Assembly: GCA_017439985.1 (NCBI GenBank) | Contig: JAFSIC010000049.1 | Location: 1 to 64,000 of the forward strand | Direction of reading: 5' to 3' | DNA length: 64,000 nucleotides | Source of the DNA: Oscillospiraceae bacterium | GTDB taxonomy: Bacteria; Bacillota; Clostridia; Oscillospirales; Ruminococcaceae | Part shown: piece by piece, positions 38,933 through 53,664 of the stretch | Layout of the letters: the number at the start of each line of letters is the position of its first letter | How positions within the stretch are numbered: the first letter of the stretch is position 1 | The notes under the pieces: model-generated | Seen by the model: only the letters and a program-made list of their open reading frames with translations | What the model was told of the DNA's origin: nothing | Databases searched by the model: none | Translations under genes and position numbers: made by a program

Positions 38933-38950
38933 TCAAAAGGAGGATTCTGT

Positions 38951-39415: not shown

Positions 39416-39521
39416 CGAAAGGACAAACCCTATGACCTACCTTATAAAAGAATGGAGCGGGTGTCGTTCCCGCTCCACAATAAAACTATTTGGGAAGTTT
39501 AAGATACCGTGAGAGAATAAA

Positions 39522-39587
39522 TTTAAGTCGTACTATTACCACATAATAATTATGAAATAGTATTTTCGGTTAAATGTAAGACTTAAA
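39522..39587. repeat. Imperfect palindrome, copy A
   Basis: Left arm 39522-39540 (TTTAAGTCGTACTATTACC) pairs roughly with 39568-39587. A second copy in the same orientation lies on the other side of the next gene. Confidence 0.7.
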
Positions 39588-39603
39588 AGAAGGGACAATA
39601 ACT

Positions 39604-40287
39604 ATGTTAGAAGCGAAAGAGTATCGTAGTGTGGAACTGTTTGAAATCTTGGGAACAAACAACAAACAATCCACCGACCGCAAACTCAACAACTACCAAA
39701 TACAATATACTTCATACGGAAGCGGTTCTAAACTTACCTATCAAATCCTCGGCATTCCAGACCCATTTAAGGTGTATTGTGTCTTTCATTTAGGGATAGA
39801 CCCAAGAGCCGATTTTATTAAAATCCGCAATTTATATTATTTTTTCTTCTGCTGTGAGGGCTTTGCGGAATTACCGTTGATAGAGCAGGAAAAGCGTTTG
39901 ATGGAAGATAATAAACCCGTTTCCCGCCAGACAATCACAAAATGGATTAACTATTTAGGCCACCTTGATTTTATTTCAATCAGTTCCAATGAATTTACTT
40001 ATTACGCTATCCAAAAAGATAATCACGGAATAAAAACCTATCGGGAGATTGAAAAAGAACAGTATTCAAAGGCTTGGAAAATTTATTGGAATACGAAAGA
40101 AGAATGTATAAAGAACGGGGAACAATATCCCAGTGCTTCTGCTTATAGGGCAATGTGGGGCTATCTGAAAGGCCATCCTTACAAGAAGCCTATCATCTAT
40201 CAGAACGCTATCTTAAAAGCAGAAATAGACTATTTAATCGGGTTAATCAACGAAGCATTCCTTAATGACCCATCCATTCAATTTTAA
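39604..40287 (+). CDS. Element protein with possible winged-helix region, unknown
   Basis: A 227-residue protein not recognised. Residues about 110-130 (KPVSRQTITKWINYLGHLDF) look like a winged-helix DNA-binding segment, as in replication initiators or repressors. The rest is rich in aromatic and basic residues. GGGACAA precedes the ATG. It is bracketed by two ~66-base imperfect palindromes of the same sequence family, and its stop codon lies inside the second one. That arrangement suggests it either binds these palindromes (replication or excision control) or is a single-gene mobile unit. Confidence 0.55.
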   Translation: MLEAKEYRSVELFEILGTNNKQSTDRKLNNYQIQYTSYGSGSKLTYQILGIPDPFKVYCVFHLGIDPRADFIKIRNLYYFFFCCEGFAELPLIEQEKRLMEDNKPVSRQTITKWINYLGHLDFISISSNEFTYYAIQKDNHGIKTYREIEKEQYSKAWKIYWNTKEECIKNGEQYPSASAYRAMWGYLKGHPYKKPIIYQNAILKAEIDYLIGLINEAFLNDPSIQF

Positions 40288-40349
40288 GTCGTACATTTAC
40301 CAGAAAAGATAAGGTAGTAATATAATATCGGTTAAATGTACGATTTAAA
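40283..40349. repeat. Imperfect palindrome, copy B
   Basis: TTTAAGTCGTACATTTACC (40283-40301) pairs with 40330-40349 with one mismatch and one extra base. Direct repeat of copy A at 39522. Confidence 0.72.
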
Positions 40350-40380
40350 AATCAAACTTTGATAATAGAAAGTCGAACAA

Positions 40381-40411
40381 AAAGGGAAGAGCAAGTATGC
40401 TCTTCCCTTTT
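40381..40411. terminator. Strong hairpin AAAGGGAAGAGCA/TGCTCTTCCCTTT
   Basis: A 13-bp perfect stem (40381-40393 with 40398-40410), loop AGTA, followed by TT. Acts as terminator after the 39604 gene. The next 270 bases (40412-40683) hold no gene; the sequence CGTAATACCCCCAAC near 40525 could be a transfer-origin remnant, without proof. Confidence 0.7.
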
Positions 40412-40683
40412 AAGTTCGTGAAAATAGAATACAAATGGAAAGGCGGCGGTTGCTGGACATGAGAGCACCTACCGCCTCTTTTCGTTTTTAGGATTCAAAC
40501 CGTCATTTCGTGGGAGCTTGAGCGTAATACCCCCAACTTTTGTGTTTCCAGAATTTTTTATCCCGAAATATACCCCGGTGTTCAAATAAACATTTGCTTT
40601 CCGCTACACTTTTGGAACGCTGAAAACAAGGCAAAAATCGCCCTAAATCAAGGGAAATCTGTTAAGGAAATTCAATAGACCTT

Positions 40684-40899
40684 TTATGATACAGTGTCCT
40701 CTTTTACATACTCCATCAAATCTCCGGGCTGGCAATCAAATATTTCACATAACTGCATAATCGTATCTACTGTAACGCTTCTATTGTTTACCAAACTATC
40801 AACAGTCTTAGGATTGATTTTATATTTATTGCGGAGGTCAACTTTTTTAATTCCTTTATCCTGCATCAGCAAGAAAAGTTTTTCGTAAGAAACAGGCAT
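40684..40899 (-). CDS. Cro/CI-like repressor of the element
   Basis: A 71-residue helix-turn-helix protein (KKVDLRNKYKINPKTVDSL then VDTIMQLCEIFDCQPGDLME), the YozG-like small Cro/CI group. The ATG at 40899 has GGAG seven bases upstream; the open frame upstream has no support. It is divergent from the 41089 gene and faces four TGTACC-type operators, so it is the likely master repressor of that part of the element. Confidence 0.82.
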   Translation of the reverse strand: MPVSYEKLFLLMQDKGIKKVDLRNKYKINPKTVDSLVNNRSVTVDTIMQLCEIFDCQPGDLMEYVKEDTVS

Positions 40900-40914
40900 A
40901 ATCATTCTCCTCTC

Positions 40915-41038
40915 TGTACCATTAAGTATACGAGTATTTTCCCATTTCGTCAACTTGATATGTACCAAAAAGTATACATTTATTCTGTACCAACTTTGGT
41001 ACATTTGCGAATAGATTTCTTGTACCTAAAATGGTACA
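40915..41038. promoter_or_regulatory. Four operators between divergent element genes
   Basis: Four 18-base sites of the form TGTACC-N6-(G/T)(G/A)TAC(A/G): 40915-40932, 40961-40978, 40986-41003 and 41021-41038. The last two are perfect palindromes (GGTACA right half), the first two have TATAC right halves. Presumed sites for the 40684 repressor. Confidence 0.75.
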
Positions 41039-41088
41039 ATACAATCACAAGGTAAGACAAACACACCAAACCAAAAGGAGAATGAATT

Positions 41089-41364
41089 ATGAGTAAACAG
41101 GAACTTATCGCAAAAATTGAAGAACTGAACCAGTGGGAAGCATTGATGGAAGAAGCCAAAAACGAAGCAGAAGCATTAAGAGATGCCATCAAAGCAGAAA
41201 TGCTTCAGCAGGATACCGAAGAAATGATTATCGGAACCTACATAGTAAGATGGACTTCGGTTCTTTCCAATCGCTTTGATACCACAGCCTTCAAAAAGGT
41301 AATGCCTGATGTATATAAAGCCTATACCAAACAGGTAGCAAGCAGAAGATTTACAATCGCATAA
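41089..41364 (+). CDS. Gp157-like small element protein
   Basis: A 91-residue protein with an N-terminal coiled coil (about 3-45) and a C-terminal segment SNRFDTTAFKKVMPDVYKAY followed by TKQVASRRFTIA. That end resembles the Gp157-type proteins of phages and conjugative elements (pattern RFD...K...P.(V/L)Y..Y). Function unknown; in phages it lies with recombination genes. AAAGGAG precedes the ATG. First gene of the rightward module leading to the SprT-like and recombinase genes. Confidence 0.65.
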   Translation: MSKQELIAKIEELNQWEALMEEAKNEAEALRDAIKAEMLQQDTEEMIIGTYIVRWTSVLSNRFDTTAFKKVMPDVYKAYTKQVASRRFTIA

Positions 41365-41480
41365 GAAAAGCCCTCTACGCAGCAACCGACCAAAGTAGAT
41401 GCGTAAAGAGCCGAACCCACTCACAAGGAGCGGATAGAAATAGTATAACCTACCCGCTCCTCAAAATCAAGGAGGATACT

Positions 41481-42125
41481 ATGAAACAGTTAACAAGTTA
41501 TAACAGAGTAGCGGGCTATCTCAATAAAATCTTTGACCTTCTCAATGAAGAATTTTTTGAAAATGAACTTTCAAGACCAACTATCACCATCCAATCTACG
41601 CCAAGAGCCTACGGCCATTTCTCTTTGAGAGAAGATACTTGGGTATCCAAACTGGGCGGCACCCACGAAATCAACATTGGAGCGGGAACCTTATCCAGAC
41701 CAATAGAAGAAGTGGTTTCTACCTTGCTTCACGAAATGGTTCATTACTACAACTATGAAAGAGGCGTTCAGGATTGTAGCAGGGGCAACACTTACCACAA
41801 CCGCAAATTCAAAGAAGAAGCCGAACGTCGTGGGCTGATTGTGGAACACTCTGATAAATATGGATGGAGTCACACTTCCCCTTCTGATTTGCTTTTGGAC
41901 TTTGTTTTAGAGAATGACCTCTCTGATATTCTTATCAATCGGAATGAGTTCAGTGGTTTCCAGATGGGCGGCACCGGAACTCACAGCGGAACCTCAATCA
42001 CTCCAACAGCAAAGAAATCAAGTTCCAGAAAATATATCTGCCCTTGTTGCGGAACAAGCATCAGAGCAACAAAGAAAGTAAATATTGGTTGCCTTGATTG
42101 CGGAGTTCCGATGATTGAATGTTAA
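41481..42125 (+). CDS. SprT-like zinc metalloprotease-domain protein
   Basis: A 214-residue SprT-family protein. The metal site is HEMVHYYN (HExxH) around residues 85-90, and the C-terminal zinc ribbon has CPCCG and CLDCG pairs. SprT/Spartan relatives cleave proteins cross-linked to DNA. In mobile elements such genes are common and may help DNA processing or counter host defence. AAGGAGG lies before the ATG. AT-rich, element-type codon use. Confidence 0.85.
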   Translation: MKQLTSYNRVAGYLNKIFDLLNEEFFENELSRPTITIQSTPRAYGHFSLREDTWVSKLGGTHEINIGAGTLSRPIEEVVSTLLHEMVHYYNYERGVQDCSRGNTYHNRKFKEEAERRGLIVEHSDKYGWSHTSPSDLLLDFVLENDLSDILINRNEFSGFQMGGTGTHSGTSITPTAKKSSSRKYICPCCGTSIRATKKVNIGCLDCGVPMIEC

Positions 42126-42170
42126 GTTTCAAAAGGGGCGGGAGAAATCCCGCTCCAAAAGGAGAAGATT

Positions 42171-42758
42171 ATGATTTATGGTTATGCGAGATGCTCCACA
42201 AGCGAAAGCAAACAGGATATTAACCGACAGGTGAAAGAACTGAAAGCCGCAGGAGCAAAGGAAATTTACCTTGAATACGAACACGGGGACAAGAAAATAA
42301 AGCCCCAACAGCAACAGATGTTAGACCAGGCACAAGAAGGAGATACCATCATTACTTTGGAAGTTTCCCGATTAGCCAGAAGTACACAGCAACTTTGCGA
42401 GATTATCAATATCATTAACCAAAAGAAGTTGCGGCTTGTGATTGTGGGAAGCATTACCCTTGATTGCCGCAACGGACAGCCCGACCCAATGAGTGAGGCG
42501 TTCTTACAGATGGCGGGCGTGTTTAGCCAGTTAGAACTATCTATGATACGAGCCAGAGTGCGGAGCGGAATGGAAAATGCCCGCTCCAAAGGTTCCAGAA
42601 TAGGCCGACCGCAAATGACAATAGACAACATCCCATCCAACTTTATTCGCCATTATCCGGCTTACAGAAGCGGCCAGCTCAATGTCAGTGAGTTAGCAAG
42701 AGTTTGTGGGGTTAGCAGGACAACGGCTTATAGGTATTTGGGTCTGTTGGAGAGGTAA
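42171..42758 (+). CDS. Serine recombinase (resolvase/invertase family)
   Basis: A 195-residue site-specific recombinase. The catalytic serine is Ser9 in YARCSTSESKQD; the conserved region LEVSRLARS carries the active-site arginines; the long E helix includes FSQLELSMIRARVRSGM. The C-terminal helix-turn-helix is LNVSELARVCGVSRTTAYRY. Size matches resolvases rather than large integrases, so it may resolve dimers or invert a segment. AAGGAGA precedes the ATG. Confidence 0.9.
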   Translation: MIYGYARCSTSESKQDINRQVKELKAAGAKEIYLEYEHGDKKIKPQQQQMLDQAQEGDTIITLEVSRLARSTQQLCEIINIINQKKLRLVIVGSITLDCRNGQPDPMSEAFLQMAGVFSQLELSMIRARVRSGMENARSKGSRIGRPQMTIDNIPSNFIRHYPAYRSGQLNVSELARVCGVSRTTAYRYLGLLER

Positions 42759-42778
42759 AAGGAACGAGACGGGTTTTA

Positions 42779-43342
42779 TTATGGTGTTTTATTCCACATT
42801 TTATGGATCAACCATGTTCCTATTGATAAAACCACAGTGATGCCCAGTGATATCCAGAATTGAGGGGAACCCGGCTCGGAAATGCTGTCCCCTAAGACAG
42901 TATAAGCAACCAGGTGCAGTCCGGAACCCAACAGACCGCCAAGTAAAAAAGTAGGGTATGGAATGCGGCAAGCTCCCAAGTACATACTGACCAGATCCCC
43001 CGGCAGACAGCCGATGACCCGTAAAAAGAAGCTGAGAAACAGGGGGGATTTCTTCTGCTTTTCAGCAATCATTTGCACACGAGGATACTTTTGTATTTTT
43101 CTTTCGATAAAAGAAGCTCCCCTCTTTTTGCCGATGCAGTACGGCAGGGTCAGGGTGATGCCCAGCCCCAGCAGATTCAGCAGAAAGGCCGAAAATGGTT
43201 CAAAAAGATGTCCGACAGCAAGCTGCAACGCACTGATTGGAAATATAACAGTGACGCTTTTCAGAGCATACAGGAGCAGAAGGACAGCCACTGCAAGGAG
43301 AGGCTGTTCGGGAGTATAATTCAGTATCATTTCAGCAGTCAT
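42779..43342 (-). CDS. TVP38/TMEM64 (VTT/DedA-like) membrane protein
   Basis: A 187-residue membrane protein of the VTT/SNARE-associated Golgi family. The domain spans about residues 40-150 with the signature FFLRVIGCLPGDLVSMYLGA and the following GGLLGSGLHLVAY. Relatives of DedA/TVP38 act as lipid scramblases or flippases. The true start is the ATG at 43342, with AAGGAAG five bases upstream; the longer frame runs into the divergent tetR gene. A GGACAA-N10-TTGTCC operator lies only 20 bases upstream of its start, so it is controlled with the rest of the cargo. GC content rises at this gene compared with the left part of the element. Confidence 0.85.
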   Translation of the reverse strand: MTAEMILNYTPEQPLLAVAVLLLLYALKSVTVIFPISALQLAVGHLFEPFSAFLLNLLGLGITLTLPYCIGKKRGASFIERKIQKYPRVQMIAEKQKKSPLFLSFFLRVIGCLPGDLVSMYLGACRIPYPTFLLGGLLGSGLHLVAYTVLGDSISEPGSPQFWISLGITVVLSIGTWLIHKMWNKTP

Positions 43343-43361
43343 GATTCTTCCTTTCGTTCTT

Positions 43362-43383
43362 GGACAAAGCACATATTTTGTCC
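43362..43383. promoter_or_regulatory. Cargo operator 1 (GGACAA-N10-TTGTCC)
   Basis: Perfect inverted repeat; the symmetry extends to 43360-43385 with nine-base arms. It sits between the VTT gene and tetR, 12 bases upstream of the tetR -35 box. Confidence 0.82.
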
Positions 43384-43395
43384 AACGAGCTTTAC

Positions 43396-43424
43396 TTGAG
43401 TTGATTTTCCTATTTTGATACAAT
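43396..43424 (+). promoter_or_regulatory. Promoter of the cargo tetR gene
   Basis: TTGAGT, 17 bases and TACAAT. Confidence 0.65.
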
Positions 43425-43447
43425 AGAAGCAGAAATGGAGGTATGGT

Positions 43448-44023
43448 ATGGCAGAATCGATTATTACGAAAAAGGCTCTTGCAACATCCCTGAAAGACCT
43501 TTTGGAAACGATGCCTTTTGAAAAAGTAACCATTGCGGATATTTGTGAAGGCTGCGGTATGAACCGCAAAAGCTTCTACTATCACTTCAGAGATAAGTAT
43601 GACTTGGCCAACTGGATTTTTGATACAGAGTTTCTGGAGATTGCCCGCGATGCACTGGACTCAAACTGCCGCTTTGGCGAAAAAGTACCGATGCATTGGC
43701 GCAGTGTACGGGATATTTGCGATTATCTGTATGAAAACCGAATCTTTTACCAGAAAGTGTTGACCTACCGCGGACAGAACTGCCTTGCCGATCATTTCCG
43801 TGAGGTCTGCTATCCGATTTTTGCTCACCGCATGGCTCTGACTTTGGAAAATGTACAGGTACCCTCGGTGATGATAGAATTCCTTGCCGACGCGGTCATC
43901 TGTGCCATTGAGCGCTGGATCACTGCCAAGGACCCGATCCCTCCGCAGGAACTGCTGAGCAGCATCCGTACCTGCTTAGAAGGTTTGCATAACATTCCTA
44001 TTGATTTTGATTTGTTTGACTAA
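43448..44023 (+). CDS. TetR family regulator, DhaS-like
   Basis: A 191-residue TetR-type regulator. The N-terminal helix-turn-helix is KVTIADICEGCGMNRKSFYY followed by HFRDKYDL; the C-terminal domain (from about 75, RDICDYLYENRIFYQKVLTY) is of the kind found in DhaS, the activator of dihydroxyacetone kinase genes. The matching operators GGACAA-N10-TTGTCC resemble the DhaS site as I remember it (GGACACAT-N6-ATTTGTCC). GGAGG precedes the ATG. It very likely controls the VTT, patatin/pseudo-radical-SAM and radical-SAM/DegV units. Confidence 0.88.
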   Translation: MAESIITKKALATSLKDLLETMPFEKVTIADICEGCGMNRKSFYYHFRDKYDLANWIFDTEFLEIARDALDSNCRFGEKVPMHWRSVRDICDYLYENRIFYQKVLTYRGQNCLADHFREVCYPIFAHRMALTLENVQVPSVMIEFLADAVICAIERWITAKDPIPPQELLSSIRTCLEGLHNIPIDFDLFD

Positions 44024-44036
44024 AATATTAGAGAGA

Positions 44037-44071
44037 AACAGGGCAGCCAGAAGGAAAGGCTGCCCTGTTTT
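44037..44071. terminator. Terminator after tetR
   Basis: AACAGGGCAGCC (44037-44048) pairs with GGCTGCCCTGTT (44058-44069), then TT. Serves convergent tetR and patatin genes. Confidence 0.85.
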
Positions 44072-44149
44072 GCTGTGCGGGAAAGAAGAGAGGGGATCCC
44101 ACAGAGCATGTAAGAGTAAGAGAATAGAGAAATATAAGAGGAACGCAAA

Positions 44150-44992
44150 TTAAAGAAAATCAAGGATTTTTCTGCCATCTTGTCGACCTTTGTCGTACAG
44201 ACGAAGCAAAGCCTCCGGCTCCCTGCACAATGTGCTGACACCGCAAGTATCATCGGGGGCAACAATCAGCAGTTTGCCTATCAGCTCACATCTTCTCGCG
44301 TAATTGATGCCATCCGTGTAGCGTAAAGCACGCTGTTCCAGTCTGTCTGCGGCAATAGGATGTTTTCTTCGAATACGTTTTGCCAACTTGATATCCTGTT
44401 CCTGTGAGCGTTTGGTATCGAGCGGTAAGGTCAGTAGAAGAACAACCCGATCACAGCCCATGTCAAACGCTTTTTGGATGGGCACCGGATCGGCCAATGC
44501 ACCGTCATAATAAGCGATTCCCCCGATTTCATAGGGTTTACAGACGAAAGGAATCGCAGAGGATGCCTTAAAAATATCATAATTGTCCTGTCGAAGGTAG
44601 GATTTATCAAAGTATTTTGCCCGACCAGTTTCAGCTTCTGTGGCAACGGTCAGAAATTCGGCAGAGTTGGAAAGAATCGCCCGATAATCCAACGGATACT
44701 CCCCATCACTGTTGCTTAAAGTGCCATAAATATAGTCAAGATCAAGGTAGGAGCCTTTCTTGAGGAAATTCCCCATACCGGCATATTCTTTTCTCATGCC
44801 GTATTCGGTGTAGAATATTTTGTTTCTGCCCTTTTGCCCAGCCATGTAAGAAGCGAGATTGGCGCTGCCGGCAGAAACGCCGATGCAAACGTCAAAATGA
44901 ATCCCAAGTTCCAGACAGGTATCCAGCACTGCAGCGGCATAAATTCCACGAAACCCTCCACCGACATCGACAATTCCAAGTTTCGAACCCAT
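44150..44992 (-). CDS. Patatin-like phospholipase
   Basis: A 280-residue patatin-family acyl hydrolase. The oxyanion loop is DVGGGFRGIYAA at the N-terminus, the nucleophile serine is in GVSAGS (about residues 38-43), and the Asp of the Ser-Asp dyad is in YYDGALADP. Such enzymes release fatty acids from phospholipids or related esters at the inner membrane face. The start codon is two bases after the stop of the upstream pseudo-radical-SAM gene, so both are translated together. Confidence 0.92.
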   Translation of the reverse strand: MGSKLGIVDVGGGFRGIYAAAVLDTCLELGIHFDVCIGVSAGSANLASYMAGQKGRNKIFYTEYGMRKEYAGMGNFLKKGSYLDLDYIYGTLSNSDGEYPLDYRAILSNSAEFLTVATEAETGRAKYFDKSYLRQDNYDIFKASSAIPFVCKPYEIGGIAYYDGALADPVPIQKAFDMGCDRVVLLLTLPLDTKRSQEQDIKLAKRIRRKHPIAADRLEQRALRYTDGINYARRCELIGKLLIVAPDDTCGVSTLCREPEALLRLYDKGRQDGRKILDFL

Positions 44993-44994
44993 CG

Positions 44995-45990
44995 TCAGCG
45001 TCGGCCTCCCTTTGGAAAGGCACGTCGGAGAATAGATCTCAGCCCTTGTTCAAACAAATTCAGCTTTCGAGAACCCTCCAACTGTCCTTTTTCATCAAAG
45101 GCAGCAACGCAGCCTTCGTGGGAAATAATACCGTCCACCCAGCGATTATCGTATTCCAACTCCCAGGGAATTGTCAGAAAATGCTGCTTGGAGCGAGTCT
45201 GCAAAATATAATTGTAAACCTTGTCTCTCGCTGGGATTGGGCAGGAAGAATCGGCCATGAATACCGTCATCAGAGGATGCAGCTCCTGTGTTTCGATCAG
45301 AAGGTCATCGTTGAGGATGTTGTGTACATCAGACTCAGAATACGACATATACAGAGAATAGAGCAATCCCATCTCCCGTAACAGCGAGCAGGTAATGGCA
45401 GCTTTTCCTTCAAATTTTACCACAAACATCAGGTTGTTCAGCTGTGCAGCCTCCTTGATCCAATCCTCGGAAATATCATTCGGAGAACAGAACAGGAAAA
45501 AGGCACTGTCGGGGTGCCTCTGCGGAAGAGTCAGCAGTTTGGACAAATCACCAGTTCCAAAGAGCAGCCAACTGTAAATTCCAAGTTCTTCTCCCTGATT
45601 GATCACAGCATCATAACGTTCATCAGGAACAGAGTCACTGAGTTTCAAGGAAATACACCAAGGAATGTTGAAATTCTCTTCCCATTCGATGGCACGGATC
45701 TGGTCAGCACCAACGGTGAAGCTGTTGAAACCGACATTCATGCCAAATTGAACAATTCGTTCAGATTCCACATGAGCCACGATATCCGGGATCAGCTTGT
45801 AGTAGGCACTGTTTTCTTGTTCCAGCATGGTCTGTGCTGCCTGGAACAGGTCCTTTCGGAAGGAGCCGCCGGACAGATGCAAGGCCATATCCACCACATT
45901 GCGCATGGAGCGTTCCGGATCGATTTTGATTTGTTTTAGCGTGTTCCGTACTACTGTTTCAATGAGAACACGAGTCATGCTGTCCTCCAT
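44995..45990 (-). CDS. Cysteine-less radical SAM-like protein (pseudo-enzyme candidate)
   Basis: A protein of about 331 residues with no recognised domain name, but it aligns along its length with the radical SAM protein encoded divergently. Matching pairs are NIPWCISL/NVPWAILL, INQGEELGIYSWL/IRQGKELGTYMYI, HPDSAFFLFCS/HPDCSFLSFTN and VKFEG/ISLEG. Where the partner has CxxxCxxC, this one has SDSVPDERYDA, and GGEP is replaced by GTGD. It should not bind the iron-sulphur cluster and may be a partner or regulatory subunit. The start ATG at 45990 (AAAGGA eight bases upstream) is chosen because the promoter's -10 box overlaps earlier ATGs. It is coupled to patatin. Confidence 0.7.
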   Translation of the reverse strand: MEDSMTRVLIETVVRNTLKQIKIDPERSMRNVVDMALHLSGGSFRKDLFQAAQTMLEQENSAYYKLIPDIVAHVESERIVQFGMNVGFNSFTVGADQIRAIEWEENFNIPWCISLKLSDSVPDERYDAVINQGEELGIYSWLLFGTGDLSKLLTLPQRHPDSAFFLFCSPNDISEDWIKEAAQLNNLMFVVKFEGKAAITCSLLREMGLLYSLYMSYSESDVHNILNDDLLIETQELHPLMTVFMADSSCPIPARDKVYNYILQTRSKQHFLTIPWELEYDNRWVDGIISHEGCVAAFDEKGQLEGSRKLNLFEQGLRSILRRAFPKGGRR

Positions 45991-46021
45991 GGACATCGTC
46001 CTTTCTTGTAGGGTTATTTCC

Positions 46022-46050
46022 ATCATAGAATATTTGTTGATCTCTCTCAA
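46022..46050 (-). promoter_or_regulatory. Promoter of the pseudo-radical-SAM/patatin operon
   Basis: On the minus strand TTGAGA, 17 bases and TATGAT. Operator 2 ends one base upstream of the -35. Confidence 0.7.
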
Positions 46051-46051
46051 T

Positions 46052-46073
46052 GGACAAAAGACCAGTATTGTCC
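46052..46073. promoter_or_regulatory. Cargo operator 2
   Basis: GGACAA-N10-TTGTCC, the same half-sites and spacing as operator 1, next to the leftward promoter. Confidence 0.82.
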
Positions 46074-46108
46074 CAAAGGGTAACAGATTGCTCTTTCGTC
46101 TTAAATTC

Positions 46109-46130
46109 CGACAAAGAGCCGAGCTTGTCC
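46109..46130. promoter_or_regulatory. Cargo operator 3
   Basis: CGACAA-N10-TTGTCC (one base off the perfect half-site), ending one base before the -35 of the rightward promoter. Confidence 0.78.
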
Positions 46131-46131
46131 C

Positions 46132-46160
46132 ATGACAGAGCTGCGCCTTTTTTCTACAAT
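46132..46160 (+). promoter_or_regulatory. Promoter of the radical SAM/DegV operon
   Basis: ATGACA, 17 bases and TACAAT. Confidence 0.68.
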
Positions 46161-46198
46161 AAAGTCAATGAATTTTATTTTGAGAAAGGCGGTCAATA

Positions 46199-47551
46199 AT
46201 GAGCACAATCAAAGAAACCATGCAGAATATTGCTATTCAGCAGGCGCTGAATTATATCGAAGGAAACCCGGAAGAGAATATTCCCAAACTCCTTGAGCTG
46301 GCTGACAAACTCCTTCCCTCCGATTGGTACGGAACACAGAGAAAAGCCATCGGTAAGGCGGTATCGGAGAAGAATAACTGGTATCAGCTGATTCTGAAGC
46401 TCTACGAGCTGGATCCGGGAGTCAGAAAAGCATTCGTACAGAACTTCCTGTTCAATGCCAGCCTGAAAGGCAGCGCCATCCAGTACGATAACGCAGAAAA
46501 ACACGGCTGCAATGTACCATGGGCAATTCTTCTTGACCCAACCTCTGCCTGCAATCTGAAATGCACCGGTTGTTGGGCAGCAGAGTACGGCAACCAGCTG
46601 AATCTCTCTCTGGAAACCATGGATTCCATCATTCGTCAGGGTAAAGAGCTGGGCACTTACATGTACATCTACACCGGCGGCGAGCCTCTGGTACGCAAGA
46701 AAGATCTGATCAAACTCTGCGAGATGCACCCGGATTGCTCTTTCTTGTCCTTCACCAATGGTACTCTTATCGATGAGGACTTCTGTCAGGAAATGCTGCG
46801 TGTGAAGAACTTTGTGCCGGCTATCTCTCTGGAAGGTTTTGCAGAGGCAAACGACAGTCGACGCGGACAAGGTGTGTACGAAAAAGTCACCAAAGCCATG
46901 GCTCTTCTGAAAGAGCATAAACTGCCGTTCGGTATCTCCACCTGCTATACTTCCGTGAATCTGGACGACGTGTGCAGCGAAGAATACTTTGACCTGATGA
47001 TCGACAGCGGCGCACTTTTTGTCTGGTTCTTCCACTATATGCCTGTCGGCAACTCTGCAGCTATGGAACTGCTTCCAAGTCCGGAACAGCGTGAAAAGAT
47101 GTACCATAAGATTCGCGAATACCGCAATACCAAGCCAATTTTCACATTGGATTTCCAGAACGATGCGGAATACGTTGGTGGCTGTATCGCCGGCGGACGC
47201 CGTTACCTGCACATCAATGCCAAAGGTGCGGTAGAACCTTGCGTTTTCATTCATTATTCCAATGCAAACATTCACGACTGCAGTTTGCTGGATGCGCTGA
47301 AAAGCCCGATCTTCATGGCATATCATGACAATCAGCCATTCAATGAGAATATGCTCCGTCCATGTCCGATGCTGGAGAATCCGGACTGCATCCGTCGTAT
47401 GGTTAAGGAGACCGGTGCAGTCAATACAGACTATCAGGATCCGGAATCTGCAGAACATCTCAGCACAAAATGCATTCCATACGCAGAGAACTGGAAAGCA
47501 ACCGCCGATAAGCTTTGGAGCTGCTCCCACTGTGGAAAGTGTGGTAAGTAA
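46199..47551 (+). CDS. Radical SAM enzyme with SPASM-like C-terminus
   Basis: A 450-residue radical SAM protein. After a ~105-residue helical N-terminal domain, the 4Fe-4S motif CNLKCTGC uses Cys118, Cys122 and Cys125, and the SAM-binding GGEP is at 160-163. The C-terminal third carries more cysteines (GGCIAGG, EPCVF, CPMLENPDC, CSHCGKCGK) and probably binds one or two extra clusters. No RiPP precursor gene is next to it. Its neighbours are lipid-linked (DegV, patatin, VTT), so an acyl-chain or lipid substrate is proposed; membrane-spanning lipid synthases are a radical SAM precedent. It overlaps degV by one base (TAATG). Confidence 0.88.
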   Translation: MSTIKETMQNIAIQQALNYIEGNPEENIPKLLELADKLLPSDWYGTQRKAIGKAVSEKNNWYQLILKLYELDPGVRKAFVQNFLFNASLKGSAIQYDNAEKHGCNVPWAILLDPTSACNLKCTGCWAAEYGNQLNLSLETMDSIIRQGKELGTYMYIYTGGEPLVRKKDLIKLCEMHPDCSFLSFTNGTLIDEDFCQEMLRVKNFVPAISLEGFAEANDSRRGQGVYEKVTKAMALLKEHKLPFGISTCYTSVNLDDVCSEEYFDLMIDSGALFVWFFHYMPVGNSAAMELLPSPEQREKMYHKIREYRNTKPIFTLDFQNDAEYVGGCIAGGRRYLHINAKGAVEPCVFIHYSNANIHDCSLLDALKSPIFMAYHDNQPFNENMLRPCPMLENPDCIRRMVKETGAVNTDYQDPESAEHLSTKCIPYAENWKATADKLWSCSHCGKCGK

Positions 47552-48414
47552 TGGCTTATCGTATTGTTACTGACGCCACTGCGGACTTAGCCGAAAATAT
47601 GCTGGAAAATCTCCCCACTCTCACCATTGTTCCCATGACAGTGGAGTGCGAAGGGGTCAGCTATACCTACGGGCCAAGCGGAGACATCGATGCTAAAAAA
47701 TTCTATGAACTTCAGCGACAAGGGAATTTCTTCAAAACAACCTCCGTCAATCCTCGATGCTATGTGGAGATTTTTGAACCTCTGCTGGAGCTGGGACTGG
47801 ATATTCTCTACATCTGCGTCACATCGGGAATGTCGGGCTGTTACAGCAATGCCCTGCTTGCCATTTCGCAACTGAAAGAAAAATATCCGCAGCGACAGAT
47901 CATTGTTGTGGACAGTCTGTGTGCTTCGGTTGGCGAAGGCTTTCTTGTTGCAGAGGCTTTGCGAATGCAGGCGAACAATGTAATGCTGGAGGATTTAGCT
48001 CTCTGGGTGGATACTCAGAAAAAGAATGTCTGTCACTGGTTTACAGTGGATACCTTTGAACATTTGAAGCTCGGCGGCAGAGTTTCTGCTACATCGGCAG
48101 CCATGGGGACTTTATTGCAGATCAAACCGCTGCTTCGTGTAGATGAACAAGGCAGTTTGGAAGTCATGGCAAAGCCTCGCGGCAGAAAAAATGCCATGAA
48201 AGCACAGCTGCAGCACATGATGAATACGCTGCAGGACCCGCATCGTATTGTGATCGGTCACGGGGACAATCCCGAAGCGGCTCAGGATCTGGCATTTGCA
48301 GTGTTGGAGCAGGTTCCGGATGCACAGATCTATATCGCGGAGATTGGTCCCGTTATCGGTTCCCATACAGGTCCTGGTATGCTGGCACTGATCTTCTGGG
48401 GAAGCGAACGATAA
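47551..48414 (+). CDS. DegV family protein (fatty acid-binding, FakB-like)
   Basis: A 287-residue DegV protein with the two-domain EDD fold. The N-terminal YRIVTDATADL and the TTSVNP segment line the ligand pocket in FakB; VTSGMSGCYSNAL and the C-terminal IGPVIGSHTGPGMLALIFWG are family signatures. DegV/FakB proteins bind a single fatty acid and present it to the kinase FakA; no FakA is here, so a chromosomal FakA or another partner is needed. The gene is coupled to the radical SAM gene, suggesting the fatty acid is linked to that enzyme's chemistry or signal. Confidence 0.93.
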   Translation: MAYRIVTDATADLAENMLENLPTLTIVPMTVECEGVSYTYGPSGDIDAKKFYELQRQGNFFKTTSVNPRCYVEIFEPLLELGLDILYICVTSGMSGCYSNALLAISQLKEKYPQRQIIVVDSLCASVGEGFLVAEALRMQANNVMLEDLALWVDTQKKNVCHWFTVDTFEHLKLGGRVSATSAAMGTLLQIKPLLRVDEQGSLEVMAKPRGRKNAMKAQLQHMMNTLQDPHRIVIGHGDNPEAAQDLAFAVLEQVPDAQIYIAEIGPVIGSHTGPGMLALIFWGSER

Positions 48415-48419
48415 AATAA

Positions 48420-48445
48420 AAGACCGGTTTGCACCGGTCTTTTTG
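48420..48445 (+). terminator. Terminator after degV
   Basis: AGACCGGT (48421-48428), loop TTGC, ACCGGTCT (48433-48440), then TTTTT. Confidence 0.88.
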
Positions 48446-48555
48446 TGCTGTAACTGTCTTTGTTCATAATTTTGAAAAATACAGTTTCTTTCCCGTTCAG
48501 AAAAAAGAGGTAGGATAATAATAGAGAATAATACGAAACCGGAAAGGAAGAGACA

Positions 48556-49353
48556 ATGAATCTCCTGTTTGCCATCAATAAAAACTTTTCGAAACTACTG
48601 TGTCATTGCCTTCACTCCATTGTCAAAAACGGCGGAGCAGCACACTATGATGCCTATATTCTGCACTCGGACTTGGATGAAGCGATCATGGCAGAAATAC
48701 AACGTGAGGCAGGTGCTGCTGTTACCTGCCTCTTTATCACTGTGGATGAAACCATTTTCCACGGTTTTCCGGAAAGCAAACGTTATCCGAAACAAATCTA
48801 TTACCGTCTGGCAGCACCGCTTCTACTGCCGAAACATCTGGATAAAATCCTGTACCTTGATGTAGATCTGGTGGTCATCAATACTTTGCAGGAGCTGTAC
48901 GATATGGACTTCGAGGGCAACTATTACATCGCCTGCAGCCATACAGATGAGTATCTGACCAAATTCAATCAGCTCCGTTTGGGCGTGGAGGAGGGAGTTC
49001 CTTACATCAATACCGGAGTTATGATGATGAATCTTCCGCTGCTTCGAAATGACATGAATATTGAAAAAATCCGGGAAACCGCTCAAAAGAAAATGCATAC
49101 CTTTCTGCTGCCGGATCAGGATTTACTGACAATGATGCACGGCGAACACATCAAACTGATCGATACCATGCGCTATAATCTCAGTGATCGCCTGCTGACT
49201 TTTTACAATCTGAATCCAAAAAATGAAAAGCTGGATCTGGATTGGGTGCGGGAAAATGCTGTTATCATCCATTATTTCGGGAAGAATAAACCTTGGAAAG
49301 AGCACTACAAGGGGATTCTGGATGTGCTGTATCATGAGAATACTGCTAATTAG
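48556..49353 (+). CDS. Glycosyltransferase family 8 protein
   Basis: A 265-residue GT8 (LgtC/GspA-like) retaining glycosyltransferase. The DxD motif for metal and nucleotide-sugar binding is in KILYLDVDLVV; other family blocks are VPYINTGVMMMNL, LPDQDLLTMM and IIHYFGKNKPWKE. It has no signal peptide and acts in the cytoplasm, probably adding galactose or glucose to a lipid or surface glycan. It follows degV after a terminator, so it has its own promoter, which I could not place; no GGACAA operator is seen before it. Confidence 0.88.
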   Translation: MNLLFAINKNFSKLLCHCLHSIVKNGGAAHYDAYILHSDLDEAIMAEIQREAGAAVTCLFITVDETIFHGFPESKRYPKQIYYRLAAPLLLPKHLDKILYLDVDLVVINTLQELYDMDFEGNYYIACSHTDEYLTKFNQLRLGVEEGVPYINTGVMMMNLPLLRNDMNIEKIRETAQKKMHTFLLPDQDLLTMMHGEHIKLIDTMRYNLSDRLLTFYNLNPKNEKLDLDWVRENAVIIHYFGKNKPWKEHYKGILDVLYHENTAN

Positions 49354-49516
49354 CGGAAAATGGTAGAAAGGTTCTGTTGGATTTCAATCAGTATTGAAAC
49401 TGTTCAAAATAATAAGTATCATTCTGAGCACGATATCTATCTGATTATTATGTTATACTTAAATATAAATTGCTAATGCTCAAATGATAAAATTTTATAC
49501 GAACGGAGGACAGGCT

Positions 49517-50494
49517 ATGCCTGATGCACGAACAAGAACGCTCTATGTTTTGGACTATCTTCTGGACAGAACGGACGAGGGCAGGGGACATATTGTTCAC
49601 CTTGAGGACATTGTAAACCACTTACATCAGCTCAACATTCCTGCGGAAAGAAAATCCGTTTCCAGAAGTATCAAAGCTTTGGAGGATTACGGAGTTGATG
49701 TAATTTATGACCCTGTTGAAAGGGGCTATCGTATTCTTTCCAGAGAATTTGATTTGCAGGAATTGCAGATTTTGATTGACTGTGTTTTGTCGTCAAAGTT
49801 CCTGACTCAAAAGGTCGCCCGCCGTTTGGTGGACAAACTGAAAAAGAAGGCAAGCGTTTATGACAGACCAAAATTTGAACGCCGTCATTATTTGACCCAT
49901 CGTGTTCGCAGCATGAATGATAGTGTTTTTTACCATCTTGATGATCTCCATGAGGCAATTGCAAATGATTGTCAAATCAGTTTCCGCTACTATACCTTTG
50001 ATGAAAAGAAGCAAAAGCTTTACCGACATAATGGAGAACTGTACTATGCCAGCCCTTATGCCTTGATTTGGAATGACGATAACTACTATCTTGTGGCATA
50101 CAACAAAGGAAAAATCAAGCATTTCCGCATTGACAAAATGGAACAGATTCAGATTGTTGAAGCAAGCAGGGAAGGAGCAGAACTCTACAAAGCCCTTGAT
50201 ATTGGTGAGCTGAATCTGCGCGCATTCTCTATGTATGGAGGGACAGAAGTGCGGACGACCATTGTTTTTCATAATCATTTATCCGGTGTTGTCGTTGATC
50301 GCTTTGGAACAGATATTATGATGCTGCCTGTTCCGGGAGATGCCGATCATTTTTCTATTACCATTCCCGTAGAAGTCAGCCCACAATTCTTTGGTTGGAT
50401 TTGCGGTTTGGGAAGTGAAGCCCGAATCACATACCCTCCAGAGGTAGTTCAAAGAATGAAAGATTTCGTAAAAGGTATTTCTGACTTGTACTAA
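49517..50494 (+). CDS. WYL-domain transcriptional regulator
   Basis: A 325-residue regulator. An N-terminal winged helix (about 5-65, LDYLLDRTDEGRGHIVHLED ... RSIKALEDYGVDVIYDP) is followed by the WYL domain (about 140-220, with PYALIWNDDNYYLVAYN and RIDKM) and the C-terminal WCX extension. WYL regulators sense nucleic acids or nucleotides and often control defence and mobile elements. The ATG at 49517 has GGAGG seven bases upstream. It lies beside the integrase, so control of excision is possible. Lower GC than the cargo. Confidence 0.88.
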   Translation: MPDARTRTLYVLDYLLDRTDEGRGHIVHLEDIVNHLHQLNIPAERKSVSRSIKALEDYGVDVIYDPVERGYRILSREFDLQELQILIDCVLSSKFLTQKVARRLVDKLKKKASVYDRPKFERRHYLTHRVRSMNDSVFYHLDDLHEAIANDCQISFRYYTFDEKKQKLYRHNGELYYASPYALIWNDDNYYLVAYNKGKIKHFRIDKMEQIQIVEASREGAELYKALDIGELNLRAFSMYGGTEVRTTIVFHNHLSGVVVDRFGTDIMMLPVPGDADHFSITIPVEVSPQFFGWICGLGSEARITYPPEVVQRMKDFVKGISDLY

Positions 50495-50503
50495 GAAATA
50501 AAA

Positions 50504-50541
50504 AAGACGACGTAAGATGCAGTATCTTGCGTCGTCTTTTC
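50504..50541. terminator. Bidirectional terminator between WYL gene and integrase
   Basis: AAGACGACGTAAGAT (50504-50518) pairs with 50524-50538 (one G-T pair), with A and T runs on both sides. Confidence 0.9.
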
Positions 50542-50567
50542 TTATGTTGCAGTATCTTGTCGAAGAA

Positions 50568-51827
50568 TTACAGATTAAATGCTTGGGCGTATTTTTCAGT
50601 TGCTGTTCGCATTTGGCGCAAATCAGCTTTGACATAGAAGTTCAGTGTTGTACTTGCATCAGCGTGTCCTAAAATCTCCTGAACGCTTTTAATATCCGCT
50701 CCGCTGCTGAGAAGTAAACTGGCACAAGTGTGCCGTAAATCGTGTGGAGAAACGTCAGGAAGTCCATTTGCTTTGACGAAGCGTTTCAGATGGCGAGTAA
50801 CAGCATCAGGGTTTCTTGGTTCAAAAGGTTTTCCTTCCCGACAGAATACAAAAGAACCTGACAACACCGCAAAAGGATAACGCTGTTCTCTTTGCCGCAA
50901 GAGCTCTTTCAAAAGAATAAGAGTCGTTTTCATCACAGGAATAGTACGCACACTGGTTGCGGTTTTAGGTTCTGCAACAATCAAACCACTCATTTTCGTA
51001 TAGGTTGCAGAGCGTTTTACACTGATCGTTTCCTTTTGAAAATCAATATCCTGCCATTGTAAGCCTAAACATTCGCCACGCCGCAGCCCTGTTGTGATCA
51101 GAATATACATGATACAGCGAAAATCAAGCGGACAGTTTTTCAGTTTCTCAAAGAAGCGGGAAGCATCTTCTTCGGTGAGAGCATCAACAGATTTTTTGCT
51201 GACTCTTGGAGCATCAACCTTTTTCATGGGATTCTTTTCAATGACTTCCTGCTTTTCAGCAAAGTTGAAGATCATCCTCAGAATATTGTAATGATGCCGT
51301 ATGGATTTATCAGCCAAAGGTTTGCCGCGATTGGTGCGGTAGTCATTACGCAGCCATGATAAATACTTCATCACTCGAATACCTGTGACCTTTTGGAGAG
51401 GAATCCCTTTGAATTTTGGCAACATGACTTTCAGAATACTTTGGTACATAGTGATGGTAGCAGGGCGATGGAAGCCATCGCTGACACAAAGAGGGAGCCA
51501 TACTTCATTGACAAATTCATCAAAGGTATAGTCCCGCTCCGGTTCCTCTTCTTCCCAAGCAGAAGCCTGACGTTCCTGCTCCAAGCGATATTCCTCTTTC
51601 ACTTGTGCTTCCCACTGGATAGCTTCCCGCTCCGCTTCTTTTCTGCTTTTGGCATTTGTTAAACCGGAGGGAGGATACCATGTTGTGGTTTTGAAGATTT
51701 GTTTTCCGCTTTCATCCCGACCAAGAAACGCCTTAAATTTGAAAGAAATGATCGTTTTTTTGCAGATTTTTTCCTCGATGGTAGCCAAATTTTCCGCCTT
51801 TCTACGGCGTTTTTTGAGGGTGGTCAA
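50568..51827 (-). CDS. int: Tyrosine site-specific integrase
   Basis: A 419-residue phage/ICE-type integrase. An N-terminal arm-binding region (about 20-60), the core-binding SAM-like domain (about 100-195) and the catalytic domain are in order. Catalytic residues are the Arg of TTGLRRGE, the HDLRHT box, the LGHADASTTLNFY block (with the His) and the Tyr nucleophile of that block. The start seems to be TTG at 51827, since a stop precedes it and no ATG fits. It sits next to tRNA-Ala(GGC), its attachment site. Two TTGTTGAC repeats just upstream may be arm-type sites. Confidence 0.93.
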   Translation of the reverse strand: MTTLKKRRRKAENLATIEEKICKKTIISFKFKAFLGRDESGKQIFKTTTWYPPSGLTNAKSRKEAEREAIQWEAQVKEEYRLEQERQASAWEEEEPERDYTFDEFVNEVWLPLCVSDGFHRPATITMYQSILKVMLPKFKGIPLQKVTGIRVMKYLSWLRNDYRTNRGKPLADKSIRHHYNILRMIFNFAEKQEVIEKNPMKKVDAPRVSKKSVDALTEEDASRFFEKLKNCPLDFRCIMYILITTGLRRGECLGLQWQDIDFQKETISVKRSATYTKMSGLIVAEPKTATSVRTIPVMKTTLILLKELLRQREQRYPFAVLSGSFVFCREGKPFEPRNPDAVTRHLKRFVKANGLPDVSPHDLRHTCASLLLSSGADIKSVQEILGHADASTTLNFYVKADLRQMRTATEKYAQAFNL

Positions 51828-51832
51828 TCAAT

Positions 51833-51852
51833 TTGTTGACTTTTTTGTTGAC
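51833..51852. repeat. Direct repeats TTGTTGAC, possible integrase arm sites
   Basis: TTGTTGAC at 51833-51840 and 51845-51852, twelve bases apart, between the integrase start and the att repeat. Confidence 0.55.
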
Positions 51853-51880
51853 CTTTTTCCACAATCAGAGCAAGTCAGGA

Positions 51881-51969
51881 AAAAAGAAAAGCACCGAAAA
51901 CCGCATGGTTTCAGTGCTGTTCGGTGGTGGAGACGAAGGGGATCGAACCCTCGACCTTTTGAATGCCAT
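51881..51969. repeat. att repeat, right copy (in functional tRNA-Ala)
   Basis: Identical to 38089-38177 over 89 bases. It includes the 3' half of tRNA-Ala and the downstream terminator hairpin AGCAC/GTGCT, so integration rebuilt a complete tRNA gene with its terminator. Confidence 0.92.
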
Positions 51970-52000
51970 TCAAACGCGCTCCCAACTGCGCTACGCCCCC
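51925..52000 (-). tRNA. tRNA-Ala (anticodon GGC)
   Basis: A 76-base cloverleaf with CCA encoded. The acceptor stem is GGGGGCG paired with CGTCTCC, including the G3-U70 pair that marks tRNA-Ala. The D arm is GCGC-AGTTGGGA-GCGC, the anticodon stem-loop TTTGA-ATGGCAT-TCAAA gives anticodon GGC, and the T arm has GGTTCGATC. The 3' half came from the element. Confidence 0.95.
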
Positions 52001-52014
52001 ATATTTATAGGAAT

Positions 52015-52043
52015 ATTATACTACCGCCCGCAGATGATTGCAA
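52015..52043 (-). promoter_or_regulatory. Promoter of tRNA-Ala
   Basis: TTGCAA, 17 bases and TATAAT on the minus strand, 15 bases before the tRNA. Confidence 0.75.
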
Positions 52044-52115
52044 GAGGAATTCTGTCGAAAGTGATAAAACTTTTACTTATATGTGAAAAGGCTTAACCAA
52101 TCTGACAGTAAAACC

Positions 52116-52144
52116 TTGAAGCTCTCTCCAAATTGTGCTAAACT
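52116..52144 (+). promoter_or_regulatory. Promoter of the MFS gene
   Basis: TTGAAG, 17 bases and TAAACT. Confidence 0.55.
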
Positions 52145-52189
52145 GTTACACATAAGATTTTTGTTACAAACATGAAAGGAGTCCTCCAA

Positions 52190-53479
52190 ATGGAAACCTC
52201 AACAAAAAAAAGCTCTGACTTGAATATCTGGGCCTTTTGGAAAGCACAGAAGCCGGCATGGAGAGTAACAGTTATCCGTACTTCTCTGGAACGCTTCGGC
52301 TATAAGCTGGTGCTTCCTTACCTGTCTCTCTACGTTATTCTCATGGGCGCAACCACGACTCAGCTGGGTCTGGTAACCAGTTTGGGCCTCATTACCGCAG
52401 GTCTCATCGGCCCATGGCTGGGTCAGCAGATCGACCGCCACGGCCCGAAAAAAATGTACATCTTCGGTATCGCTGTTCTGATTCTGGGCTACATCGCCTT
52501 CGGCTTTGCCAAGGTATGGCAGGTCGCTGCGCTGGGTATGTTCCTGCATCAGATGGGTCAGACTCTGGGCGGACAGAGCTGTGCCAACATCTGCGGCAAC
52601 TGCCTGACCAACTGTGACCGCGGCAAGGGCGTTATGGTATGTGAAACTCTGGCAGCAGGCGCGCTGGGTATGCTGGCACCGATGCTGGCAGGCTGGATCA
52701 TGGTAAATATCATGAACGTCCACGGCGACGTTACCGACCCGAATCAGGTTCGTCCGCTGTTCTTCATCACTCTGATCTGCACCGTTATTTCTCTCTTTGT
52801 AGTTATCTTCAAGCTGGATGTTCGTGACTGGGGTACCGGTCTCAAGACCAAACACAGCGTTATCAAAGACGGTGTTGCCATTCTGAAAGCAGATATTAAC
52901 TGCGTGAAATGGGTCTTCATCAACTCTGTCAGCCGTCTGCCAAACGCACTGGTTATTCCTTACCTGCAGCTCTTCGCTTCTGAAGTGAAAGGCGCTACCG
53001 CTGAAGAACTGGCTATCATGACCACCGCCATCGCACTGACTTCCGTTCTCTGCGGCTACATGGCAGGCGTTATCGGCGACAAGATCGGCCGTAAGAAAGT
53101 TCTCATCGCGCTGATCCTGCTCTACTGTGCAGGTCTGCTGCTGCTCATCAACCTGAACGACAACCGCTGGCTCATTCTGGTTGGTATTCTGGCTGGTTTC
53201 CAGGAAATCGGTGCAGCGCTGGGCGGCTCCATCCAGCACGAGCTGGTACCTGCCCGCATCCGCGGCCGTTGGTCCGGTGTAAACAGTCTCTTCGGTTCTA
53301 TGGTCAGCGCAAGCATGGCAGCTTTGGCCGGTATGTTCTGGGACAATCTGGGTCCACAGTGGGTATTCCTCATTTACATCGGCTTCGAAATGCTGCTCCG
53401 CATTCCGCTGCTCGTTAGTCTGCCGGAAACCCTCAAATATAAAGTGGACGAAAGCAAATTCTCCGCATTGGATGCATAG
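52190..53479 (+). CDS. MFS transporter
   Basis: A 429-residue major facilitator superfamily transporter with 12 predicted helices. The loop motif A appears as GPWLGQQIDRHGPKKMYI between helices 2 and 3 and again as GVIGDKIGRKKVLI in the second half. An unusual cysteine group, SCANICGNCLTNCDRG, lies near residues 135-150. The start ATG at 52190 has AAAGGAG eight bases upstream; an ATG six codons earlier lacks a site. Probably a drug or metabolite exporter. Confidence 0.88.
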   Translation: METSTKKSSDLNIWAFWKAQKPAWRVTVIRTSLERFGYKLVLPYLSLYVILMGATTTQLGLVTSLGLITAGLIGPWLGQQIDRHGPKKMYIFGIAVLILGYIAFGFAKVWQVAALGMFLHQMGQTLGGQSCANICGNCLTNCDRGKGVMVCETLAAGALGMLAPMLAGWIMVNIMNVHGDVTDPNQVRPLFFITLICTVISLFVVIFKLDVRDWGTGLKTKHSVIKDGVAILKADINCVKWVFINSVSRLPNALVIPYLQLFASEVKGATAEELAIMTTAIALTSVLCGYMAGVIGDKIGRKKVLIALILLYCAGLLLLINLNDNRWLILVGILAGFQEIGAALGGSIQHELVPARIRGRWSGVNSLFGSMVSASMAALAGMFWDNLGPQWVFLIYIGFEMLLRIPLLVSLPETLKYKVDESKFSALDA

Positions 53480-53528
53480 CGCGGAGTGCCTCCGCAGGCT
53501 GTTTCGCGATAAAACTTCATAAAAAATA

Positions 53529-53661: not shown

Positions 53662-53664
53662 CGA

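Follow-up and report, generated by a model that had tools for sequence, protein, structure and literature searches.

A six-gene module at positions 42779–48414 of a 64,000-nucleotide stretch of genomic DNA from an Oscillospiraceae bacterium (the window; assembly GCA_017439985.1, contig JAFSIC010000049.1, positions 1–64,000) joins a radical S-adenosylmethionine (SAM) enzyme, here called rSAM, to a full-length homologue that carries no cluster motif, here called pseudo-SAM. Both stand under one operator sequence together with a VTT-type membrane protein, a TetR-family regulator, a patatin-like lipase and a DegV/FakB-type protein, and the core of this arrangement recurs among relatives. We give a probability of roughly 0.4 to the reading that the module is a membrane-lipid stress regulon in which rSAM likely edits fatty acyl chains anaerobically. 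A literature search that left most subscription papers outside its reach found no description of a module with this composition. The genes, operator copies and promoter-like sites are as follows:

42779–43342, minus strand: VTT/DedA-type membrane protein (PF09335, 70.6 bits, cut-off 33.9)
43362–43383, no strand: operator O1, GGACAA-N10-TTGTCC, 0 mismatches, between VTT and TetR
43396–43424, plus strand: TetR promoter-like site, TTGAGT-17-TACAAT
43448–44023, plus strand: TetR-family regulator, TetR_C_8 type (PF00440, 34.7 bits; PF14278, 50 bits; nearest solved relatives DhaS-type)
44150–44992, minus strand: patatin-like lipase (PF01734, 73.2 bits, cut-off 27.7)
44995–45990, minus strand: pseudo-SAM, full-length rSAM homologue without the cysteines (family-profile alignment, structure model)
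46022–46050, minus strand: pseudo-SAM promoter-like site, TTGAGA-17-TATGAT
46052–46073, no strand: operator O2, 0 mismatches, ending 1 base before the pseudo-SAM −35 box
46109–46130, no strand: operator O3, 1 mismatch, ending 1 base before the rSAM −35 box
46132–46160, plus strand: rSAM promoter-like site, ATGACA-17-TACAAT
46199–47551, plus strand: rSAM (PF04055, 63 bits, cut-off 29.5; N-terminal helical domain)
47551–48414, plus strand: DegV/FakB-type protein (PF02645, 229.8 bits), its start abutting the rSAM stop
48418–48443, no strand: terminator-like hairpin 3′ of DegV, between DegV and GT8
48556–49353, plus strand: GT8 glycosyltransferase (PF01501, 122.6 bits), without operator; a module neighbour in some relatives

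Domain searches bore out the families and strands that a first-pass annotation, made from the sequence alone, had given these seven genes. The VTT start codon most likely lies at 43342; patatin has its serine and aspartate motifs in the alignment in addition to a Pfam score above cut-off; and DegV exceeds the generic domain model (249.2 against 99.7 bits) and falls below the FakB1 equivalog model (115.4 bits, cut-off 350). The same genome holds one Dak2 match, a FakA-like protein in an open frame of 567 amino acids. The three transcription units first counted are in fact four, in two divergent regions (VTT / TetR and pseudo-SAM–patatin / rSAM–DegV), with both rSAM + DegV and pseudo-SAM + patatin as abutting pairs; that the six genes stand under a shared operator holds. 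So does the placement of GT8 outside it; a terminator-like hairpin does precede GT8, although such hairpins are no commoner in the sequence than in shuffles (7 versus 6.7).

The radical SAM enzyme and its cysteine-less homologue

The superfamily motifs CxxxCxxC and GGE are present in rSAM and kept in 120 of 120 listed homologues, while CxxxCxxC or GGEP appears in none of the 120 listed homologues of pseudo-SAM, whose alignment gap relative to rSAM coincides with the cluster loop. Neither Pfam nor NCBIfam gave pseudo-SAM a match. Its family profile nevertheless aligns with that of rSAM over 328 columns (hhalign 99.8%, E = 9.7e-30), and its structure model, with a mean predicted local distance difference test score (pLDDT) of 90.2, has SuiB and viperin as its first structure matches. 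Pseudo-SAM, proposed at first pass as a cysteine-less radical SAM-like partner, is a homologous fold without the radical SAM cluster motif. It is also a fast-diverging pseudoenzyme: across 67 loci with both proteins, median identity to the window is 42.5% for pseudo-SAM and 75.8% for rSAM. It lends itself as a natural example to the question of how a radical SAM fold, once dead, acquires a function. VTT and TetR likewise diverge far faster than rSAM (medians 42.2% and 45.5% versus 75.8%; L006–L085, L172–L251 and L282–L301).

Three further cysteines of rSAM, C329, C348 and C389, are invariant in 28 sequences and are likely its auxiliary-cluster set; the SPASM domain model scores 20 bits, just under its cut-off of 21.5. 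Of the 25 NCBIfam models listed for rSAM (25 of 66), not one attained its cut-off, which leaves the enzyme without an assigned function among those models.

A shared operator and recurrent neighbours

The claim of one shared operator stood up to genome-level comparison. At up to one mismatch the window contains four operator sites against 0.17 expected by chance, the fourth at 63642, outside the integrated element described below. In the 1.68-Mb genome the only exact sites are O1 and O2 (none in the control search); at one mismatch there are 7 sites against 6 in the control, so only the exact genome sites are informative. The exact operator failed as a family-wide marker and was dropped (11 of 61 genomes, with 19 sites against 25 in a reversed control).

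For the relatives, a profile scan of genome contigs yielded 141 pseudo-SAM loci, of which the best 80 were kept; their record titles are mostly Lachnospiraceae, Oscillospiraceae and unplaced Clostridia, with one labelled Chloroflexi. Lachnoclostridium phytofermentans (L014) is an isolate that has the module. Searching these loci with the window motif at up to 2 mismatches placed an operator upstream of pseudo-SAM in 45 of 80, against a mean of 0.82 in 40 shuffles. Operators also precede rSAM (28/51), a P-type ATPase (7/15), VTT (6/14), MntP (8/8), TetR (24/59), HdeD (3/4) and a SAM-synthetase-like gene (5/5), counts in which a single site can appear twice because neighbouring genes share upstream regions. 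The other families tested have one operator or none (DegV 1/22, patatin 1/15, GT8 1/5, PLD 0/5, FtsH 0/3), as expected if these genes are internal to a unit or do not belong to the regulon.

At 25 of 51 distinct pseudo-SAM sites, under lenient matching, a −35 box starts 1 base after the operator and a −10 box follows 16–18 bases on. This geometry is found at 7 of 35 rSAM sites, 1 of 7 for VTT, and none for P-ATPase (0/8), MntP (0/8) or TetR (0/25); in the window both the pseudo-SAM and rSAM promoters have it. The closest solved relatives of the window TetR are the DhaS-type activators 4mk6 and 2iu5; it reaches 108.8 bits with TIGR02366, under the cut-off of 129, and unlike DhaS has no dihydroxyacetone kinase operon beside it. 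Promoter geometry and DhaS kinship together suggest that TetR may act as an activator at the pseudo-SAM promoter, where a repressor could also sit. In some relatives operators matched at up to 2 mismatches are repeated in tandem every 29 bases ahead of pseudo-SAM or rSAM (L041:7858–7937, L054:7881–7931, L030:1559–1609); the O2–O3 distance in the window is 57 bases. In relatives the operator is followed, toward rSAM, P-ATPase and VTT, by another conserved element, about CAAAATGTAACA; its window counterpart at 46074–46085 reads CAAAGGGTAACA.

Gene positions were tabulated in those 49 of the 80 loci whose flanks reach 3 kb or more both ways. Of these, 24 have a divergent rSAM within 1.3 kb of pseudo-SAM and 35 a convergent TetR no farther than 2.5 kb away; DegV directly follows rSAM in 11, patatin adjoins pseudo-SAM in 9, and 16 have no rSAM in the stretch. 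Counting fragments, rSAM is present in 51 of the 80 loci, and 24 of the 29 remaining genomes hold it elsewhere, each with a best E of about 1e-141 or lower. In a class sample of 343 genomes (rSAM called at E up to 1e-100, pseudo-SAM at 150 bits or more), rSAM occurs in 72 and pseudo-SAM in 13, of which 9 also have rSAM (Fisher p = 1.8e-4). Including the weak genome G193 (64 bits, a 297-amino-acid frame, no rSAM) gives 9 of 14 (p = 4e-4); by position, all other weaker pseudo-SAM rows are the rSAM genes themselves.

The first-pass annotation had proposed tabulating this co-occurrence, and the neighbours recur rather than vary at random: TetR, rSAM, DegV, patatin, VTT, P-ATPase and MntP return around pseudo-SAM, GT8 is near it in 5 of 80 loci, and one locus (L043) holds all seven gene kinds including GT8. 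Relatives' modules add cardiolipin synthase, a Ca2+-type P-ATPase, MntP, DUF308/HdeD, FtsH and SAM synthetase. One representative of each family was scored against curated models: cardiolipin synthase (TIGR04265, 324.7 against 290) and FtsH (750.7 against 600) exceed their cut-offs; the P-ATPase passes as a PMCA-type Ca2+ ATPase (515.4 against 507) and stays below the PMR1 and SERCA cut-offs; MntP and DUF308 lie above their Pfam cut-offs; and the SAM-synthetase N-domain reaches 35.1 against 33.1. Cardiolipin synthase stands behind VTT in L026, where it is the one over cut-off, and by similarity in L008 and L076. A stricter count of 4 loci carrying a DUF308-like cluster took the place of an initial 18. 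On the tree, informative pairs were too few in the tests of pseudo-SAM against DegV or patatin and of TetR against HdeD.

Two further proteins accompany some modules. A 278-amino-acid protein in which only a SAM-synthetase N-domain is recognised occurs in L076 (3484–4320), L043, L049, L050 and L053, lying between rSAM and pseudo-SAM in all of these but L043. A 149-amino-acid protein near rSAM or pseudo-SAM (L054:5932–6381 and six more loci) has no Pfam match and carries acidic DxDxD-type repeats, a motif that suggests Ca2+ binding.

From the side of rSAM, we read 80 of the listed rSAM places and counted neighbours within 3 kb scoring above 60 bits: TetR in 17, pseudo-SAM in 7, HdeD in 6, oleate hydratase and DegV in 5 each, MntP and patatin in 3 each and VTT in 2. 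The most informative order, TetR–hydrolase–oleate hydratase–rSAM–SAM synthetase–RelA/SpoT–HdeD (L195), recurs in L196 and L197 over the part that begins with oleate hydratase and ends with HdeD; L203 has TetR–oleate hydratase–rSAM fragment, so that oleate hydratase directly precedes rSAM in these four. In L180 the order is oleate hydratase–TetR–pseudo-SAM–rSAM, with oleate hydratase two genes from rSAM. The TetR of the L195-type operon is weakly similar to the module TetR (51–57 bits). Elsewhere we found TetR–patatin–HdeD–rSAM–RelA/SpoT–VTT (L225), GroEL–TetR–rSAM–SAM synthetase (L185, and by similarity L215 and L216) and, as a single case, MntP-like–rSAM–cyclopropane synthase (L237). The SAM synthetase beside rSAM is complete in L195 and L185 and recognised by similarity in L196, L197, L215, L216 and L084.

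The family sample of 119 genomes yields 15 near-full-length oleate hydratases; for 11 of these, the genome lacks this rSAM. In the four genomes with both (G008, G012, G038 and G042) oleate hydratase adjoins rSAM, which in G038 is cut by the contig end; G047 also has rSAM, and of oleate hydratase only fragments, not adjacent to it. In a quick tree of 120 rSAM rows, restricted to near-full-length rows and with long branches flagged, oleate hydratase neighbours call for 2 changes, at 2 places, and pseudo-SAM neighbours for 12, with good branch support for at least 8; neither neighbour is present in 67 rows.

Candidate functions of the module

The lipid-facing character ascribed to the gene set at first pass is upheld by cardiolipin synthase, oleate hydratase and cyclopropane synthase in relatives, although the set is broader than first described, extending to ion pumps, FtsH and HdeD. 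The oleate hydratase operon and the added membrane genes strengthen the lipid reading and widen it to a membrane-stress regulon, and that operon, with its SAM synthetase, together with the shared operator, allows an enzyme so far anonymous to be tested directly for a role in lipid stress.

What we infer beyond the gene arrangement concerns the regulator's ligand and direction, the partnership of rSAM with pseudo-SAM, and a lipid or acyl substrate and its product. TetR, perhaps as an activator, would bind an acyl or membrane-active ligand and switch the units on; patatin would free or trim acyl chains, DegV would carry the free fatty acid, and the genome's single FakA-like kinase could activate the DegV-borne fatty acid. 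Spending one SAM per turnover, rSAM would take a hydrogen from an acyl chain, and pseudo-SAM would assist it by docking or by presenting the substrate. VTT, with cardiolipin synthase in relatives, may then redistribute lipids and restore the bilayer; the relatives' P-ATPase, MntP, FtsH and HdeD may restore both bilayer and ion balance. If true, this would address the means by which strict anaerobes, with no oxygenases to call on, remodel acyl chains that are unreactive. A more ambitious form, which we offer tentatively, is a so far undescribed anaerobic system of acyl-chain editing. In it rSAM and a catalytically dead twin would work as a pair to rewrite fatty chains of the membrane when a single acyl-sensing TetR activator signals; a SAM synthetase, a FakB-type carrier and a patatin of its own would supply the pair, and mobile elements would pass the system between Clostridia.

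Parts of this scheme have known counterparts. The window DegV belongs to the family of FakB, its solved relatives are named FakB or fatty-acid-binding, and a FakA-like gene is in the genome; it differs from the FakA/FakB system in its score under the FakB1 cut-off and in abutting a radical SAM gene. Cyclopropane fatty acid synthase, which stands behind rSAM in L237, performs SAM-dependent acyl-chain editing in existing lipids under stress, by methyltransferase chemistry with neither a radical nor a pseudo-enzyme.

Three observations weigh against an acyl-editing regulon. The best fold matches of rSAM are the SPASM peptide and protein enzymes SuiB, SkfB and anSME. Lipid neighbours are absent from most of the other rSAM loci read, as the low neighbour counts imply. 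Pseudo-SAM occurs without rSAM in 4 of 13 class genomes and 5 of 29 follow-up genomes, so it is not strictly tied to rSAM.

The same fold matches, together with FtsH, GroEL, RelA/SpoT and ion pumps among relatives' partners, would suit a general envelope-stress response in which rSAM modifies a membrane or cytosolic protein or peptide instead of a lipid. We consider this unlikely. As the first-pass annotation had noted, no precursor gene for a ribosomally synthesized and post-translationally modified peptide (RiPP) is apparent in the units, where gene pairs abut, a distant precursor not having been sought. Open reading frames of 35–102 amino acids in the promoter region overlap operators or flanking genes: against the 80 loci, the 49-residue frame matches one locus (E = 0.005) and the 51- and 35-residue frames none, and for the 54- and 102-residue frames, which run into the coding sequence of rSAM and pseudo-SAM, there are 16 and 70 match lines. 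The RiPP recognition element of SuiB is winged, unlike the N-terminal domain of rSAM, which is all helical in the model; this domain, the lack of an apparent precursor and the membrane gene context set rSAM apart from the SPASM/twitch enzymes. SAM synthetases beside rSAM in turn suggest bulk SAM turnover.

In a closer variant the substrate of rSAM would be exogenous unsaturated fatty acids, free and held by DegV, in a route of detoxification or hydrogenation that runs parallel to oleate hydratase; the cell's own lipids would not be the target. Agreeing with it, 5 of 80 loci have oleate hydratase no more than 3 kb from rSAM, DegV comes straight after rSAM in 11 of 49, and the FakA-like kinase is present. 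We nonetheless find it improbable, for oleate hydratase has no match in the window genome, and membrane lipids are what patatin, VTT and cardiolipin synthase suggest.

That rSAM is a membrane-spanning lipid synthase of the Mss/Tes kind, joining acyl tails, seems very improbable. Its similarity to Tes, the member with which it was compared, spans only about 75 core residues (E = 0.0014), and both SPASM enzymes and viperin outscore Tes in fold comparison. We know of no pseudo-SAM partner for Tes or Mss. The likeness would lie in a radical SAM enzyme acting on lipid tails, and in host taxa: Mss + Ger homologues are reported from many Lachnospiraceae and Oscillospiraceae species (PMC13274423), an overlap with the hosts seen here.

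A role in anti-phage defence, in which the module would be carried by a phage satellite and pair a viperin-like rSAM with patatin as effector, can be set aside as highly implausible: the element has an integrase and repeats and pVip models match the rSAM core, and the core only (E = 2e-11, 41.9 bits), but PADLOC gave matches for only rSAM and the WYL regulator among 8 proteins scanned, the CBASS lipase model reached 12 bits against a cut-off of 200, no nucleotide kinase (the viperin context) is among the seven genes, and relatives' neighbours are envelope genes.

The integrative element and other copies

The module lies, with an integrase, in an element of 13.8 kb between direct repeats:

38089–38177, no strand: left 89-bp direct repeat, likely attachment site, identical to 51881–51969 by letter comparison
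42171–42758, plus strand: serine resolvase/invertase
49484–50494, plus strand: WYL/WCX regulator
50568–51827, minus strand: tyrosine integrase
51881–51969, no strand: right 89-bp direct repeat, a perfect copy, overlapping tRNA-Ala
51925–52000, minus strand: tRNA-Ala (GGC), likely integration target

The element also encodes a helix-turn-helix protein and a SprT-like protein. Integrase, flanking repeats and tRNA-Ala mark the window copy as part of an apparent integrative element at a tRNA gene, in keeping with the first-pass description of the module as mobile cargo. That description does not extend to the module at large, which recurs widely and has a match to the window integrase in 3 of 236 fetched loci, whose flanks of at most about 8 kb would let farther integrases escape. 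In an empty-site comparison, junction matches outside the window genome were mostly about the length of the tRNA gene, the longest covering 148 of 497 bases.

A same-genus genome (G038, locus L192) repeats the six genes and their order, with identities to the window of 82% for rSAM, 62% for patatin, 56% for DegV and 43–48% for pseudo-SAM, TetR and VTT. No blastn match (E 1e-5) links window positions 35001–54000 to that locus; with these identities, this indicates that the two copies do not reflect recent shared inheritance.

No pseudo-SAM was found in plasmids or in IMG/VR, where 12 pattern-matching stretches gave 0 confirmed cases. Relatives of rSAM occur in four plasmid records, all below 40% identity, and among phage records in five unannotated faecal contigs at 47–56%. 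Within the window element, two pairs of 28-bp direct repeats (39519–39588 and 40280–40350) flank a 227-amino-acid open reading frame (39604–40287) that has no Pfam or PHROG match. On a Methanosphaera plasmid (L304:4221–5933) a TetR gene directly precedes a distant rSAM relative, and on plasmids of E. albertii (L302:2254–3633) and K. pneumoniae (L303:7875–9176) rSAM relatives of 37–40% identity lie near IS66 parts.

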